The notes under the pieces were generated by a model that was given only the letters and a program-made list of their open reading frames with translations, was not told the DNA's origin and searched no databases. A stretch of DNA of 44,582 nt from a virus. Position 1 is the first letter of the stretch. Every line of letters begins with the position of its first letter. The stretch is taken from IMG/VR virus record IMGVR_UViG_3300045933_000120, positions 1 to 44,582 of that record. One strand, 5' to 3'. This document shows, piece after piece, positions 32,239 to 40,937 of the stretch. The translations under genes were made by a program, and so were the position numbers.

Positions 32239-32673
32239 GTGCCAGCGAAAGCGAAGAAAACCCGTTTCATCAAGATCAGCACCAAAGGCAAGGAGCTCGC
32301 GGCCGATGCCAAGAAGTGGGATGCGGTGCTCGACACCACGACCGGGCTTATGTGGACGGTCAAGGAGCAGAAAGCGAAGAACCACGCCGCCGCTGTCACG
32401 GCGGCCGAGAAAACAAAGGCCGCGAGCTACGTTACGGGCTGGCGCTTGCCGACCGTCGAGGAACTCTTCTGCCTCGCTGATCGCTCGAAGTACCGGCCCG
32501 CGATCGACACCGACTATTTCCCTGACTGCAAATCGGATTTCTATTGGACGGGCACTCCGTGGGCGGAGTCGCCCTCCGGTTACGCGTGGTTCGTCAGCTT
32601 CGACAACGGCAACTCGTACTGCTACCACCACGGCAACGACGGGTTCGTCCGCGCCGTGCGCGCCAGTCAGTAA
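32239..32673 (+). CDS. DGR variable protein 1 (C-type lectin fold, DUF1566-like)
   Basis: 144 residues from a GTG after GAGGAG. The core (TGLMWTVKEQKAKNHAAAVT, then GWRLPTVEELFCLADRSKYR, FYWTGTPWAESPS) is the DUF1566/FGE-like C-type lectin fold used by many DGR target proteins. The final 35 residues before the stop are VR1. Ten of its bases differ from the template, all at template A, changing Asp/Asn/Tyr codons to Gly, Phe, Ser, Asp, Tyr and Cys at the expected ligand face. No signal peptide and no fibre domain, so how it is displayed is unclear. It is a paralogue of the next gene. Confidence 0.9.
   Translation: MPAKAKKTRFIKISTKGKELAADAKKWDAVLDTTTGLMWTVKEQKAKNHAAAVTAAEKTKAASYVTGWRLPTVEELFCLADRSKYRPAIDTDYFPDCKSDFYWTGTPWAESPSGYAWFVSFDNGNSYCYHHGNDGFVRAVRASQ
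32563..32667 (+). repeat. DGR variable repeat VR1
   Basis: 105 bp aligned without gaps to the template at 33723-33827. Ten differences, every one at a template adenine (to G six times, to T four times... counted as A to G or T only). The last about 27 bases are identical and GC-rich (initiation-of-mutagenic-homing region). One base later, VR has C (32668) where the template has G (33828). Confidence 0.93.
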
Positions 32674-32703
32674 TCGGTCCATTGGCTCTTTAAGGGGGAG
32701 CGT

Positions 32704-33228
32704 ATGAATTCACTTGGCGTTGAATTGAAAGCTGTCATTGCGCGTCACGTCGCGAGCGCAGATCAGGAACAGATCCTCGCGATCGCGAGCGTCCTTAGTG
32801 CCTTTGCCGATGAGCCACGCCGCGAGATTCTCGCGTCGCTTGCGGGCGCGCGGTTCGAGATTCTCGACGACGAGCAGGTGCTCGATCACGAGCTCGGGCT
32901 GATCTGGACGCGCAAGGACGCTGCCGACAGGACGATGACGTTCAAGGATGCCGAGACGCACTGCGCGAAGCTCGAGCTCGCCGCCGCGCGCGGATGGCGT
33001 CTGCCGACCGTCCGCGAGCTTCTGAGCCTCGTCAACTACGAGCGGCACAACCCGTCGATCGACACGAGCGTCTTCACGGACTGCAAGACGGGCTGGTACT
33101 GGACGTCGACGCCGTGGGCGGAGTCGCCCTCCGTTTACGCGTGGGTCGTCCTCTTCAACAACGGCAACTCGTACTGCCTCCACCGCGGCAGCAACGGGTT
33201 CGTCCGCGCCGTGCGCGCCAGTCAGTAA
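32704..33228 (+). CDS. DGR variable protein 2 (C-type lectin fold, DUF1566-like)
   Basis: 174 residues, ATG after AAGGGGGAG. The first about 60 residues are a helical extension (SADQEQILAIASVLSAFADE) not found in protein 1. Then the same lectin-like core: LGLIWTRKDAADRTMTFKDA, GWRLPTVRELLSLVNYERHN, WYWTSTPWAESPS. The C-terminal 35 residues are VR2, with 12 changes, all at template A, giving Val, Leu, Tyr, Cys, Arg, Gly and Ser. The shared TPWAESPS before VR marks the two proteins as a duplicated pair served by one template. No export signal. Confidence 0.9.
   Translation: MNSLGVELKAVIARHVASADQEQILAIASVLSAFADEPRREILASLAGARFEILDDEQVLDHELGLIWTRKDAADRTMTFKDAETHCAKLELAAARGWRLPTVRELLSLVNYERHNPSIDTSVFTDCKTGWYWTSTPWAESPSVYAWVVLFNNGNSYCLHRGSNGFVRAVRASQ
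33118..33222 (+). repeat. DGR variable repeat VR2
   Basis: 105 bp aligned without gaps to the template. Twelve differences, all at template A, including A to C, A to G and A to T. VR2 also differs from VR1 at most of the shared variable sites, so the two were diversified separately. As in VR1, C follows the repeat (33223) where the template has G. Confidence 0.93.
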
Positions 33229-33243
33229 TTGGGACATCGGACC

Positions 33244-33669
33244 GTGACCTCTAAAGCCCCGCCGATCGTCAAGCTCGCCGAGCGCCTCATGTGCGAGATC
33301 GAGATCATCGTCCGCGGCTTTTCGCGCTACCACAAATACCAGACCGGCGAGGACCTTCGCTCGGCGGCCTGGAAGGTGCTCTGGGCGGCGTATCGGGCGT
33401 ATCTAGACCACTCCAAGCGCACCGAGTGGCTCGAGCAGCTCGTGCTCGCCGTCGACGAGCTCAAGCTGACGATTCAGATCATCAAAGGCATCGGCGCGTT
33501 CAAGTGCTTCGCGCAGTTCGAGGCGCTCGCCCGTTCCGTTTCAGAGCTCGGCAGGCAGTGTGGAGGTTGGCACAAGCAGCACATGAGAGGCCTGAACTTG
33601 GCGACGTCGTCGCCGGGGTGTGCCCAGGTACTGAGTGCCCGCGACGCCTCCGGTGAGGCTCACCGATGA
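33244..33669 (+). CDS. avd: DGR accessory variability determinant (Avd-like)
   Basis: 141 residues from the GTG at 33244; a TTG at 33229 is an alternative. Helices such as IVKLAERLMCEIEIIVRGFS, AWKVLWAAYRAYLDHSKRTE and LVLAVDELKLTIQIIKGIGA fit the four-helix-bundle Avd family, and the residues are rich in Lys/Arg as needed to bind RNA/RT. Avd forms a pentamer that partners the RT in DGR cDNA synthesis in Bordetella phage. The last about 30 residues (RGLNLATSSPGCAQ...) look unlike a bundle. Its stop overlaps the RT start (ATGA). Confidence 0.85.
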   Translation: MTSKAPPIVKLAERLMCEIEIIVRGFSRYHKYQTGEDLRSAAWKVLWAAYRAYLDHSKRTEWLEQLVLAVDELKLTIQIIKGIGAFKCFAQFEALARSVSELGRQCGGWHKQHMRGLNLATSSPGCAQVLSARDASGEAHR

Positions 33670-34970
33670 CGAAGCTGCCCTACCCCTTTGGATGGACAGC
33701 CGAGTCGCAAGATCGCGGGTTAGCGGAGTCGCCCTCCGATTACGCGTGGAACGTCAACTTCAACAACGGCAACTCGAACTACAACCACCACGACAACAAC
33801 GGGTTCGTCCGCGCCGTGCGCGCCAGTGAGTATCGCGGTGCTGTCACCTTGCGCGACCTCCATGCTGCCTGGCGCGAGGCGCGCCGCGGCAAACGCCCGA
33901 GCGAAAGCCAGCTGGCATTCGAGACTGCGTGGATCGACGAGCTGCTCGCGCTCGAGGGCGAGCTCAACACCCTGACCTGGCGGCCGTCGGCGCCGACGTG
34001 CTTCGTCGCCAAGCACCCGAAGGCTCGCGAGATCCATGCGCCGGCCTTCCGCGATCGCGTCGTGCACCACTGGCTCGTGCCCGAGCTCGAGCGCATCTAC
34101 GAGCGCGCGTTCATCTTCGACAGCTTCAGCAACCGGAAGGGCAAGGGCACGCACGCCGCGGTCCGGCGTCTGCAGCGCTTCATGCGGCAGGCAGGCGACG
34201 GCTGGTATCTGCAGCTCGACATCCGCAACTTCTTCAACTCGATCCACCGGCCGACGCTGTACGCGCTGCTCAAGGAACGGATGACTCGGCACGGTCTGTC
34301 GCTGCCGCTTCGTCATGCCGTCCACGCCCTCCTCGCCCGCTCCGCGCTCGAGCACGGCGTCATTCACGCCTGCTCGGCCGAGGAGCGCGCCGCGGTGCCC
34401 GCACACAAGCATCTCGCGAATGCCGCGCCCGGGTGCGGCATCGCGATCGGCAACCTGTCATCGCAGTTCTTCGCGAACGTCTATCTCAACGAGCTCGATC
34501 AATACGTCAAGCACGAGCTCCGCGCGCGCCGGTACATTCGCTACGTCGATGACTTCGTGCTCGTCGACGAGAGCCGGGAGCGGCTCATCGAGTGCCACGC
34601 CGCGATCGCTGCCTTCCTCGAGGACCGTCTCAAGCTCACACTCAAACCCGACTACAAGTTGCGGCCGCTCGGCGCCGGCGTCGATTTCCTGGGCTACATC
34701 GTTCGCAAGACCCATCTGATCGTCCGCCGGCGCGTCGTTCTCCATGCGCGCGAGAAGCTCAAGAGGTGGGCCCGCTCCCACGTTCGCCGACGACAACTGC
34801 GTGCCACGCCCGACCAGTGCCGCGAGCTCTGCTCGGTCTGGGCGAGCTACGTAGGCCACTTCTCGCATGCAGCGAGCGGACGTCTGCACGGGCGTATTCG
34901 CCGGGAATTTACATGGCTCGCGCGCGCGTTACGCATCGCGGGCCGAGCAACCAGGAGTTTCGAACAATGA
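33666..34970 (+). CDS. DGR reverse transcriptase, open frame running through the template repeat
   Basis: 434 residues if started at the ATG at 33666, which overlaps the Avd stop (ATGA). Residues 20-54 are then coded by the template repeat; a GTG inside the template (33816-33818) is a possible later start. RT motifs: YLQLDIRNFF (181-190), IGNLSSQFFA (261-270; SQ where group II intron RTs have QG, a DGR mark), YVDD (293-296) and GAGVDFLGY (near 335-344). It copies the template RNA with errors at A. No maturase or endonuclease domain follows. Its stop overlaps the ParB start by 4 bp. Confidence 0.93.
   Translation: MTKLPYPFGWTAESQDRGLAESPSDYAWNVNFNNGNSNYNHHDNNGFVRAVRASEYRGAVTLRDLHAAWREARRGKRPSESQLAFETAWIDELLALEGELNTLTWRPSAPTCFVAKHPKAREIHAPAFRDRVVHHWLVPELERIYERAFIFDSFSNRKGKGTHAAVRRLQRFMRQAGDGWYLQLDIRNFFNSIHRPTLYALLKERMTRHGLSLPLRHAVHALLARSALEHGVIHACSAEERAAVPAHKHLANAAPGCGIAIGNLSSQFFANVYLNELDQYVKHELRARRYIRYVDDFVLVDESRERLIECHAAIAAFLEDRLKLTLKPDYKLRPLGAGVDFLGYIVRKTHLIVRRRVVLHAREKLKRWARSHVRRRQLRATPDQCRELCSVWASYVGHFSHAASGRLHGRIRREFTWLARALRIAGRATRSFEQ
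33723..33827 (+). repeat. DGR template repeat (TR)
   Basis: 105 bp, same length and register as VR1 and VR2. It has 26 adenines and nine AAC codons in the frame of the variable proteins, the usual TR bias that lets A mutate without making stops. Outside A positions it equals both VRs exactly. It lies between the Avd and RT core sequences and inside the RT open frame. The VR/TR difference C versus G just after the repeat may act as the IMH/IMH* discriminator. Confidence 0.93.
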
Positions 34971-37217: not shown

Positions 37218-37422
37218 CGATCACACTCGCCGCATCGTTCCCTGCCGCGAGCAGGGTTGCCGCGCGCAGCTCATTTACCTGCCGACGCGCAACGGATCGC
37301 GGATGCCGTGCGACGCGGAGACCGTGCTGCCCGACGACGTCGTCTACGATCCGCAGAAGCACATGTCCCACTTCAAGACGTGCACGAACCCGAACCGATT
37401 CAGCAAGGGCAAGCGGCAATGA
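37207..37422 (+). CDS. Small Cys-containing protein
   Basis: 71 residues from the ATG at 37207. CREQGCRAQLIYLPTRNGSR and MSHFKTCTNPNRF suggest a small zinc-binding or nucleic-acid-binding domain (C-x4-C, later H-x3-C). It overlaps the gene before and, by 4 bp, the HerA-like gene after it. Confidence 0.6.
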   Translation: MTTDDHTRRIVPCREQGCRAQLIYLPTRNGSRMPCDAETVLPDDVVYDPQKHMSHFKTCTNPNRFSKGKRQ

Positions 37423-39143
37423 CGCTGCCGATCCCGACCAAAGCCCTCGAGCAGCACGTCATCACACTCGGCAAGACTGGCGCCGGCAAGAGCTCGGCGC
37501 TGCGCGTGCTCGTCGAGCATCTGCTCGAGCACGACAAGCCGGTCTGCATCATTGATCCGAAGGGCGACTGGTTCGGGATCAAGTCGTCCGCCGACGGCAA
37601 GCAGGCCGGCTATCCGGTCGTGATCTTCGGCGGCGAGCATGCCGACGTCCCGATCAACGAGCACTCCGGCGCGCACGTCGCCGAGCTCGTCGCCGGCGGG
37701 AACCGCCCGTGTCTGATCGATCTCGGTGGCTGGATGGTCGGCGAGCGCACGCGGTTCTTCATCGCGTTCGCCTCACATTTCTTCAAGCATGCCAGAGGCC
37801 TCCGCCACCTCGTCATCGACGAGGTCCACAACTTCGCGCCCCAGGGCAAGGTGCTCGACGTCGACGCCGGAAAGATGCTGCACTGGACGAACCGGCTCGC
37901 GAGCGAAGGGCGCGGCAAGGGCATCACGCTCCTGGCCGCGAGCCAGCGCCCGCAGAAGGTACACAAGGATTTCGTGACGAGCTGCGAGACGCTGATCGCG
38001 ATGCGCGTCACGCATCCGCTCGACCGCGGCGCCGTCAAGGATTGGATGGACGGCTGCGCGGATCCGACGAAGTCCCGCGAGCTCGTCACGCAGCTCGCAA
38101 GCATGAAGCGCGGCGAGGCGATCGTGTGGTCACCGGAGATCGACTTCGGGCCCAAGCACGTGACGTTCCCGATGTTCACGACCTACGACTCGTTCAAGCC
38201 GCAGACGGCGGTCGCGAAGTTGCAAGGCTGGGCGGAGGTCGACCTCGAGGAGGTCCGCACGAAGCTCGCGACCGTCGTCGCCGAGGCGCAAGCCAACGAC
38301 CCGGCTCTGCTGAAGAAGCGGATCCGCGAGCTCGAGGCGGCGGCGCGAAAGCCGGGCCCGGACCCCACTATCACACATAGTGTAAAAGCGCCCGGGCCCG
38401 ACGCCGGCCAGATCCGCGAACTGCGACGCCGCGCCGAGCTCCTCGAGCGGAACGTCAAGGCGCTGCAGGAGTATTCCGAGGGGCTGTTCAAAGGGGTCGC
38501 GTGGGCAGAGGCGATCCTCGAGCAACTATCGGACGCGCTCGGCGAGTTCAGACAGGTCCGCTTCCCTCGGCAGCCGAAGCTCGTCGAGATCGCGTCGCCG
38601 CCCGTTTCACCGAATGCCCCGGCCGTTTCACGAAACCGCCCGCCCGTTCCGCAAAGCCGCTCATCCGTTTCACCGCGCGCGGCGCCGGACGGCCTGAATA
38701 AAGGCGAGGCGTTGGTCCTCACCGCAATCGCGCAGTTCGAAGCCGCCGGCGTCGAGCGCGAGCAGCTTTTCGTACTCACTGGCTATAAGAGCAGGAGCAT
38801 CGACACGTACATCACGCGGTTGCGGCAGTTTGGATTTATTGGCACCACGTGGCCGGTCGTCGCGACGGAGGCGGGCATTGAGGCGCTGGGCGCGTCATTC
38901 GAACCACTGCCTACCGGCGACAGACTTCGCGAGTACTGGCTCAACAAGCTGCCCGACGGCGAAAAAAGGATGCTCGAGGCCCTCGTCAGCTACTACCCGA
39001 CCGGCATGACGAAACAACAGCTCGGCGATCTCACCAACTACAAAGGACGAAGCGTCGACACATACATCGGCCGGCTCAAGGCTCGGCGCGTGGTCGAAAA
39101 ACGCGGCACAGAATGGTTCGTGAGCGAGGCACTGTTCGGATGA
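37419..39143 (+). CDS. HerA/FtsK-type ATPase with tandem C-terminal winged helices
   Basis: 574 residues. Walker A is GKTGAGKS (18-25) and Walker B LVIDEVHNFA (131-140), with KPVCIIDPKGDW between, typical of HerA/DUF87 DNA-translocating ATPases. A helical linker and a Pro/Ser-rich region (VSPNAPAVSRNRPPVP) separate it from two repeated winged-helix domains (LTGYKSRSIDTYITRLRQFG and LTNYKGRSVDTYIGRLKARR). It likely moves or remodels DNA as a hexamer. Together with ParB-like protein it may act in partition or replication; a defence or exclusion role is possible too. No nuclease domain is fused. Confidence 0.75.
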   Translation: MTLPIPTKALEQHVITLGKTGAGKSSALRVLVEHLLEHDKPVCIIDPKGDWFGIKSSADGKQAGYPVVIFGGEHADVPINEHSGAHVAELVAGGNRPCLIDLGGWMVGERTRFFIAFASHFFKHARGLRHLVIDEVHNFAPQGKVLDVDAGKMLHWTNRLASEGRGKGITLLAASQRPQKVHKDFVTSCETLIAMRVTHPLDRGAVKDWMDGCADPTKSRELVTQLASMKRGEAIVWSPEIDFGPKHVTFPMFTTYDSFKPQTAVAKLQGWAEVDLEEVRTKLATVVAEAQANDPALLKKRIRELEAAARKPGPDPTITHSVKAPGPDAGQIRELRRRAELLERNVKALQEYSEGLFKGVAWAEAILEQLSDALGEFRQVRFPRQPKLVEIASPPVSPNAPAVSRNRPPVPQSRSSVSPRAAPDGLNKGEALVLTAIAQFEAAGVEREQLFVLTGYKSRSIDTYITRLRQFGFIGTTWPVVATEAGIEALGASFEPLPTGDRLREYWLNKLPDGEKRMLEALVSYYPTGMTKQQLGDLTNYKGRSVDTYIGRLKARRVVEKRGTEWFVSEALFG

Positions 39144-39355
39144 TACTCACCCCGGACGAGCTCGAGCAGATCACCGACTACAAGCAGCCGGCGGCACAGA
39201 TCAAATGGCTGCGTCTGCACCGGTGGCGTTTCGAAATCGGTGCCTCCGGGTATCCGAAGGTCGACGTCGCGGAGAAGGACCGGCACCTCGTCGGCGCGCG
39301 CACGGACGACGTCGACGAGGAACCCAATCTTGGCGCGTTTCGGAAGTTCGGATAG
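39140..39355 (+). CDS. DUF4224-like small protein upstream of integrase
   Basis: 71 residues from the ATG at 39140, overlapping the ATPase stop (ATGA). LTPDELEQITDYKQPAAQIK, WLRLHRWRFEIGASGYPKVD is the pattern of the DUF4224 family, which is usually found directly before phage integrases and may be an excisionase-like or architectural DNA-binding factor. Eight bases separate it from the integrase ATG. Confidence 0.75.
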   Translation: MILTPDELEQITDYKQPAAQIKWLRLHRWRFEIGASGYPKVDVAEKDRHLVGARTDDVDEEPNLGAFRKFG

Positions 39356-39362
39356 TCTACCG

Positions 39363-40469
39363 ATGCTCGTGGGGCGAAAAAGAAGAAAGGATAAGCACCT
39401 ACCGACCGGGGTCACGCTGGACTACGGCACGTACTACTATCGCCGCGGCCGCGCGCGCAAGCGCATGATGCTCGGCAAGTCGCTGCCCGAAGCGATGGAG
39501 GCCTGGGCGAAGATCGTGCAGCCGTCGACGTCGATCGACACGATGCGAGTGGCGTTCGAACGGTACAAGCGCGAGCTCCTGCCGAAGCGCGCGGAGGCCA
39601 CGCGCCGCAACCAGCTCTATATGTTCCCGAAGCTCGAGGAGTACTGCGGGCACATGCGGCCGCGCGCGCTGAAGCCGCGCCACGGCTACACGTTTCTATC
39701 CGAGCGCAGCCAGGAGATCCAGCGGAAGGTTGCCGCCGCGGCCGCCGCGAAAAAGCTCGAGCCGCCAGCGGACATTGCGCAGCGCGGTTTCACACAGGCC
39801 ATCAAGGAATTCAACCTGCTGTCGGCCGTGCTTACGGCGTGCGTCATGTGGGGCGAGCTCGACGAGAACCCGCTGTGGCAGGTCCGCAAGGGCGACTACA
39901 CGCCGGCGTCGCGATCGCGCTGCCCGAGCGACGAGGAGTTCGAGTCCGTCTATAAGCTCGCCGGCGAGCGGATGCAGATCGGCATGGACCTCGCCCTATT
40001 GACCGGCCTACGCCGCGGAGGCGTCCTCCGGCTGCCCCTCGAGGGCGAGGGCGACGACGGGCTCCGGTCCGAGCGCCCGGGCAAGCGCACGAAGGCCCTG
40101 ATCTTCGAGTGGACCGACGAGCTCCGCGCGGTCGTCGCTCGAGCAAAGCACCTCACGCCCAGGCTACGGCGCGCGGCCACGATCGTCGGCCGCGATGGCG
40201 CCAAGCGTTCGGTCCGGCCTTTGCTCTGCACGCGCGCGGGCACGTTCTACACGCCGAGCGGCTTCGAGGCGAACTGGCAGCGGCTCATGAACAAGGCGCT
40301 CAAGCAGAAGGTGGTCGCCGCCCGTTTCACTTTCAACGATATCCGCGCCAAGTCGGCGACGGACACGGACGACGACGTCGAGGCGAGTGCCCGGCTCGGC
40401 CACGAATCGATTCAAACGACGAAGCGGATCTACATTCGGAAGGCGACGAAGGTGAGGCCACTGAGATGA
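39363..40469 (+). CDS. int: Tyrosine integrase
   Basis: 368 residues, ATG at 39363. N-terminal arm-binding domain (YYYRRGRARKRMMLGKSLPE), core-binding domain in the middle, catalytic domain with Arg in LALLTGLRRGGVLRL, FNDIRAKSATD (the H-x-x-R box with Asn in place of His), LGHES and nucleophile Tyr357 in KRIYIRK. It integrates the phage at a tRNA gene; the attP core lies 300 bp downstream. The His to Asn change is noted but Int variants are known. Confidence 0.9.
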   Translation: MLVGRKRRKDKHLPTGVTLDYGTYYYRRGRARKRMMLGKSLPEAMEAWAKIVQPSTSIDTMRVAFERYKRELLPKRAEATRRNQLYMFPKLEEYCGHMRPRALKPRHGYTFLSERSQEIQRKVAAAAAAKKLEPPADIAQRGFTQAIKEFNLLSAVLTACVMWGELDENPLWQVRKGDYTPASRSRCPSDEEFESVYKLAGERMQIGMDLALLTGLRRGGVLRLPLEGEGDDGLRSERPGKRTKALIFEWTDELRAVVARAKHLTPRLRRAATIVGRDGAKRSVRPLLCTRAGTFYTPSGFEANWQRLMNKALKQKVVAARFTFNDIRAKSATDTDDDVEASARLGHESIQTTKRIYIRKATKVRPLR

Positions 40470-40723: not shown

Positions 40724-40937
40724 CGCGCAAAACGCTGCAAGTGCTTGTCGCGGCAGGCGGAAAGCTGGTGCCCCGAGCGCGACTCGAACGCGCGACCTTC
40801 CGCTTAGGAGGCGGACTCTCACTCCTGCCCAAGTCTCTGAACGCCCACGAATTCGCGCCCGCGAAGTCTGGGAAAAAATCGCCCGCTTCACCTTGTATAT
40901 ACGAGATTCCGCGCCGATCGGCCCGGAATTTCCCAGA
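40676..40937. other. attP: attP region: tRNA-Arg(CCU) 3' half core flanked by arm-type repeats
   Basis: On the minus strand, 40818-40766 reads the 3' half of a tRNA-Arg: anticodon stem TCCGC/GCGGA with loop CTCCTAA (anticodon CCT), T arm GCGCG-TTCGAGT-CGCGC, acceptor strand TCGGGGC and ACCA. A matching 5' half is absent, so it is not a tRNA gene but an integration core that would restore the host gene. TTTCCCAGA-type repeats at 40676-40686, 40695-40705, 40867-40875 (inverted) and 40928-40937 flank the core and are good arm-type Int sites. The rest of this 223-bp gap has no gene. Confidence 0.85.

Follow-up and report, generated by a model that had tools for sequence, protein, structure and literature searches.

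A two-target diversity-generating retroelement of a temperate-type phage, in which the template repeat probably doubles as coding sequence of the reverse transcriptase

We analysed a viral DNA stretch of 44,582 nucleotides (IMG/VR virus record IMGVR_UViG_3300045933_000120, positions 1 to 44,582; hereafter referred to as the window), and in particular the region between positions 32,239 and 34,970, which an initial annotation made from the sequence alone had described as a complete diversity-generating retroelement (DGR) with two targets in a temperate phage. The element is a complete two-target DGR, as the repeats, both Lcl_C targets, the Avd protein and the reverse transcriptase (RT) are all present. 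Three properties had been overlooked: the template repeat (TR) lies in frame inside the RT gene, a spacer between TR and RT is missing, and the cassette is located on the repressor/integrase side of the phage genome. On the basis of the sequence comparisons described below we consider it likely that the TR constitutes the translated codons 20-54 of an RT gene that starts at ATG 33666, and that the avd-TR-RT mRNA is both messenger and template. We regard it as fairly probable, with somewhat less confidence, that the element represents a fixed lineage of phage DGRs in which the TR is translated in frame as part of the RT gene, one mRNA serves as messenger and as template, the priming element is hidden within coding sequence, and the need for a functional RT polices the template.

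The order of the cassette is target 1, target 2, avd, TR and RT (Table 1). Within the open reading frame (ORF) of the RT the TR makes up codons 20-54, its frame being that of both targets, and only 21 nt separate the end of the TR from the RT core, without a spacer in between. The codon that occupies the position of the target stop is a sense codon (TAT) in the TR. Alternative RT starts within the window are GTG 33816, inside the TR, and TTG 33849.

Table 1. Features of the DGR cassette in the window (VR, variable repeat; aa, amino acids)
Feature	Position	Strand	Remarks
Target gene 1	32239..32673	+	144 aa; GTG start; Lcl_C domain (Pfam PF07603, E=4e-26); VR1 at 3' end
VR1	32563..32667	+	differs from TR at 10 sites, each a TR adenine; ends one codon ahead of target stop
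VR1 3' junction, CAG TAA (stop codon)	32668..32673	+	CAGTRR at junctions of clade VRs examined
Target gene 2	32704..33228	+	174 aa; Lcl_C domain (PF07603, E=3.6e-29) and N-terminal helical segment; VR2 at 3' end
VR2	33118..33222	+	differs from TR at 12 sites, each a TR adenine
VR2 3' junction, CAG TAA (stop codon)	33223..33228	+	
avd-like gene	33229..33669	+	start TTG 33229 or, more likely, GTG 33244
RT gene including TR	33666..34970	+	434 aa; leader, TR-encoded segment, linker and RT core
ATGA, RT start codon overlapping avd stop	33666..33669	+	
RT leader	33666..33722	+	19 codons, MTKLPYPFGWTAESQDRGL; clade consensus MTxPRYxxGCAAxSQVxGE
TR	33723..33827	+	in frame with RT and both targets
Linker between TR and RT core	33828..33848	+	opens with invariant GAGTNTC junction (here GAGTATC)
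RT core	33849..34970	+	RVT_1, E=1e-16; PHROG 1423, E=1e-94
IGNLSSQ motif (RT domain 4, DGR-type SQ)	34446..34466	+	(nearly) invariant among 35 aligned RTs of the clade
YVDD catalytic motif	34542..34553	+	V, D and D invariant, Y nearly invariant in clade

Relatives of the RT were gathered by RT sequence only and supplemented with annotated phages, and the related loci (the best 80 per scan, near copies included) were searched for adenine-restricted repeats with a script of our own. A repeat pair accompanied 163 non-identical RTs, among which that of the window falls in a monophyletic clade with a support of 100, which comprises 40 non-identical rows and 41 loci including the window. In 41 of the 41 loci no stop interrupts the RT frame across the entire TR, and this frame is identical to that of the target; the clade VRs are free of stops in it, and the target stop follows one codon after the VR in most of them. 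The distance between the end of the TR and the RT core is 18, 21, 24, 27, 30 or 33 nt throughout the clade (41/41), and the approximately 10 changes in linker length on the tree are all multiples of three, for which the probability would be about 2e-5 if length were free. An ATG that overlaps the avd stop was found in nearly all clade loci, with a purine-rich stretch (GAGG/GGGG) upstream, and the A of this ATG, which is at the same time the wobble base of the last avd codon, is conserved. The leader is conserved as protein, with in-frame gaps of one codon and third codon positions that are the most variable. After the TR no start codon (ATG, GTG or TTG) is present in 27 of the 41 loci, three of which (L065, L066 and L070) also lack one in the final 40 nt of the TR. 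Finally, at the 3' junction the sequence GAGTNT was found in all 41 TRs, versus CAGTRR in the VRs examined, so that the target stop (TRR) is read as a sense codon (TNT) in the TR and the RT frame stays open. The TR therefore probably doubles as N-terminal coding sequence of the RT.

Various observations weigh against this interpretation. The brt frame of the Bordetella phage BPP-1 is also open through its TR, and in GC-rich DNA an open frame across the repeat is weak evidence and insufficient by itself. There are exceptions within the clade: the leader frame is shifted in L068 (a contig that contains N) and the ATG is absent from L061 and L066. Conservation as nucleotides is seen in the GAGTNTC junction, with its invariant third-position T, and in segments of the leader (TCGCAA, GGGG); this implies a constraint at the nucleic-acid level as well, and part of the conservation signal may reflect an RNA or DNA function. 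In the AlphaFold2 model of the RT the residues 1-57 have a predicted local distance difference test score (pLDDT) below 50, so that the extension has the appearance of a disordered tail and no fold backs a role for it. An analysis of 37 sequences with RNAalifold yielded no convincing helices around the TR (-4.3 kcal/mol), and a search of Rfam gave no match.

Several of these points would fit an ordinary, BPP-1-like DGR, in which the TR is non-coding, the RT starts at the weak GTG 33816 or at TTG 33849, and conservation of the leader reflects a role as part of the template RNA. Such an arrangement would agree with the nucleotide-level conservation of leader and junction, with the predicted disorder of the TR-encoded segment, with the open frame in BPP-1 and with the cDNA-termination motif that has been located at the end of the BPP-1 avd gene (PMC12875486). 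It would leave the majority of the clade loci without a start codon behind the TR, and three of them without one in the last part of the TR as well, and it is hard to reconcile with linkers that change only by multiples of three, with the ATGA overlap and its conserved wobble A, with the frame that is conserved in every clade locus, and with the excess of third-position changes in the leader. We thus consider a non-coding TR unlikely.

Most likely the element functions as follows. The RT, together with Avd, would make cDNA on the TR RNA, misincorporating opposite adenines, and this cDNA would replace either VR1 or VR2, so that two separately diversified Lcl_C lectin-fold proteins would arise from one template. 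Translation of the RT, coupled to termination of avd, would begin with ATG 33666 and pass through the TR in the lectin frame; the ribosome would read the target-stop position as the sense codon TAT and enter the RT core directly behind the short linker, and the avd-TR-RT mRNA would then be messenger and template alike. Any element of the RNA for the recruitment of RT-Avd and the priming of cDNA synthesis, which resides in the spacer in BPP-1, would have to be located inside the coding sequence of the RT or have been replaced. The TR-encoded segment of the RT is probably a tolerated, disordered N-terminal tail. Frameshifts or stops in the TR would disable the RT, which is a possible benefit of the coupling.

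The DGR of BPP-1 (mtd-avd-TR-brt), the best-studied example, resembles that of the window in the order of target, avd, TR and RT, in the adenine restriction of the repeat differences, in the RT fold with its SQ and YxDD motifs, and in having a lectin-fold target. It differs in the 144 nt between the end of its TR and the start of brt, a stretch that forms a folded spacer which recruits bRT-Avd and holds the priming adenine for cDNA synthesis (PMC12875486), whereas in the window the RT core follows after 21 nt and the TR is within the RT gene. In addition, BPP-1 has one target that is located among the tail genes, while the window has two on the lysogeny side. In the BPP-1-like viral relatives the TR is likewise some 140 nt or further away from the RT core, and there is a single VR. 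As the non-coding, structured 3' spacer is needed for priming in BPP-1, a large clade that has no room for a spacer raises the question of where priming happens, and also of whether the translation of an RNA and its reverse transcription control one another.

The sequences at the VR ends were compared as well. Behind the VR of BPP-1 there is an 8-bp GC hairpin with a GAAA loop, which was recovered as a positive control. A search for hairpins or cruciforms of this type (GC-rich, 7-10 bp, GRNA loop, 4-34 bp after the VR) revealed none of at least 7 bp within 45 nt of either VR of the window and one among 71 clade VRs; since most other relatives were negative too, this absence is not distinctive. 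The junction difference of BPP-1, between the initiation of mutagenic homing sites IMH* and IMH, which marks the direction, is matched in the window's clade by GAGTNT in the TR versus CAGTRR in the VR, and by analogy the G/C difference would mark the TR against the VR. The contrast between GAGTNT (TR) and CAG-stop (VR) provides a rule for finding such DGRs and for correcting annotations of RT starts. At most clade VRs a conserved T-rich stretch (about TTNGNCYTTTYTGA) follows CAGTRR (e.g. L071, 3884-3905), which is weaker in the window; it may be a target-recognition element that takes the place of the BPP-1 hairpin.

Overlap between the TR and the RT ORF was catalogued in 2012 as DiGReF group 3, where the spatial arrangement was deemed irrelevant and the RNAs probably separate (PMC3521204). 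Group 3 is an annotation class, and DGRs with multiple VRs are catalogued there too (PMC3521204); in the window's clade, on the other hand, the overlap is fixed in frame, in a supported clade and with a conserved upstream start. Two-target DGRs are also known: DiGReF lists 19 DGRs with two VRs (PMC3521204) and a proportion of about 13% has been cited (PMC10743442), so that the presence of two targets is unremarkable in itself. Among the relatives two or more VRs were found in 28 of 40 members of the window's clade, in 27 of 34 members of its sister clade and in 3 of 54 DGRs with a spacer. While DGRs, double targets, Lcl_C targets and TR/RT-ORF overlaps have all been reported before, we found no account of a clade-fixed, in-frame TR that serves as N-terminal coding sequence of the RT: no description of a conserved, in-frame and translated overlap was recovered from the searchable literature, which did not include the 2018 DGR survey by Wu et al. 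A TR and RT that form a single ORF could provide a compact natural DGR for directed-evolution tools.

The sister clade is well supported and phage-rich (34 rows, including Burkholderia phage Magia, Shewanella phage QDWS and the Pseudomonas phages LPPA56 and Haboob). The TR is close to the RT core in this clade too, and the DGRs of the four phages just named share with the window two or more small targets, avd, a TR that ends about 15-40 nt before the RT core and, according to the annotations of Magia and Haboob, the location of the cassette on the repressor/integrase side. The RT ORFs overlap the TR here as well (32 fully, 2 partially), but the frame differs from that of the target, with one fixed offset in 30 of the 34 loci; the leader is another one than in the window's clade, and possible RT starts lie inside the TR. 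Many of the members (among L051-L055 and L109-L137) have candidate ATG starts in the TR, approximately 57-60 nt before its end. In Magia (L056) we encountered a third VR (38813-38903, - strand) in gp57 near the repressor, at a distance of some 7 kb from the TR; 15 of 27 template adenines are changed and nothing else, and the gene is annotated only as a possible DGR target. In L121, a metagenomic virus contig, one TR serves five VRs.

The assignment of the protein components was borne out by profile and structure comparisons. The two targets had been described as paralogous lectin-fold proteins, and indeed both contain an Lcl_C domain and are 44% identical outside the VR; the AlphaFold2 model of target 2 (mean pLDDT 88.5) has the C-terminal domain of Legionella Lcl as its best match (8q4e, E=6e-6), with C-type lectins next, and supports an Lcl_C lectin fold for this protein. 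Lcl_C/DUF1566 is the commonest Pfam domain reported for DGR targets (PMC6642488), and the window's targets are essentially alike to these, apart from being short, stand-alone versions. A position-based orthology of targets 1 and 2 across the clade was tried and rejected: some subclades keep the proximal targets apart from the distal ones, but support for the window's pair is poor. The ORF behind the targets that had been called Avd-like matches the Avd family PHROG 3206 (E=4e-14) and, below its curated cut-off, the NCBIfam model DivGenRetAVD (E=5e-10). The RT, in which IGNLSSQ and YVDD had been noted, has the BPP-1 DGR RT as its best match in PDB by sequence and also by fold (8ub7, with a template modelling score of 0.89 by target length).

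The coordinates of the three repeats and the restriction of all their differences to template adenines, as initially annotated, proved exact on recount. With 26 adenines in the 105 nt of the TR, the adenine restriction alone has a hypergeometric p of 2e-7 for VR1 and 5e-9 for VR2; the 22 substitutions are to G (11), T (9) and C (2), and non-adenine differences are absent from all 210 VR nucleotides. VR1 and VR2 differ from each other, as had been noted, at 10 positions that are each a template adenine, and the nine AAC codons of the TR correspond to varied residues in both targets. No further VR emerged when the entire window was scanned on both strands.

Two pairs of close relatives with identical TRs suggest that the DGRs of the window's clade are active: the VRs of L071 and L083 differ at 16 adenine positions and at no others (with 19 differences in the 200 nt upstream), and those of L086 and L104 at 9 adenine positions and at no others (13 differences in the 200 nt upstream). 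By extension, the DGR would be active in this particular phage too. That it has decayed or become inactive here would be compatible with the weak integrase match and with the result of an exact 30-mer scan, which found no near-identical copies of this phage in viral contigs; given that the RT motifs and the TR frame are intact, that the VRs are free of non-adenine differences and that relatives show recent adenine-only changes, we regard decay as quite improbable. Ordinary gene duplication with unspecific divergence, for which the paralogy of the targets might plead, is already refuted by the occurrence of 22 out of 22 differences at TR adenines.

Profile searches in the window identified a P22-type Cro, a helix-turn-helix repressor, ParB, a lambda-type portal, a GpA terminase and, with a weak match, a tyrosine integrase. 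The element that carries the DGR is a temperate-type phage, in agreement with what had been proposed. Its - strand carries the head and tail genes; the DGR cassette is on the + strand, outside the tail genes, 3' of the repressor and ahead of ParB and the integrase. Because the cassette is on the repressor/integrase side in the window as well as in Magia and Haboob, the targets may be proteins of the lysogen or of early infection rather than tail fibres. A tentative possibility, which we take seriously without preferring it, is that they are not receptor-binding proteins of the virion but products of the repressor/integrase arm, for instance intracellular or surface binders, that would be made during lysogeny or at an early stage of infection. 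The strand and place of the cassette, its counterparts with small targets in Magia and Haboob, and the small size of the two proteins, in which no tail-anchoring domain was found, argue for this possibility; on the other side, tail proteins account for most of the phage DGR targets that have been characterised (Mtd in BPP-1), and small proteins could still join the virion.

Some further features of the phage were observed outside the cassette. A complete tRNA-Arg gene (CCT; 40766-40842, - strand) adjoins the integrase gene (39342-40469, + strand) and is possibly the attachment site. Lysis-type genes are found at the right end of the window and tail genes at the left, which suggests a circularly permuted, nearly complete phage genome. 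An ORF 3' of ParB (37419-39143, + strand) encodes a HerA/DUF87-type ATPase, with weak resemblance to HerA ATPases and to conjugative coupling proteins.

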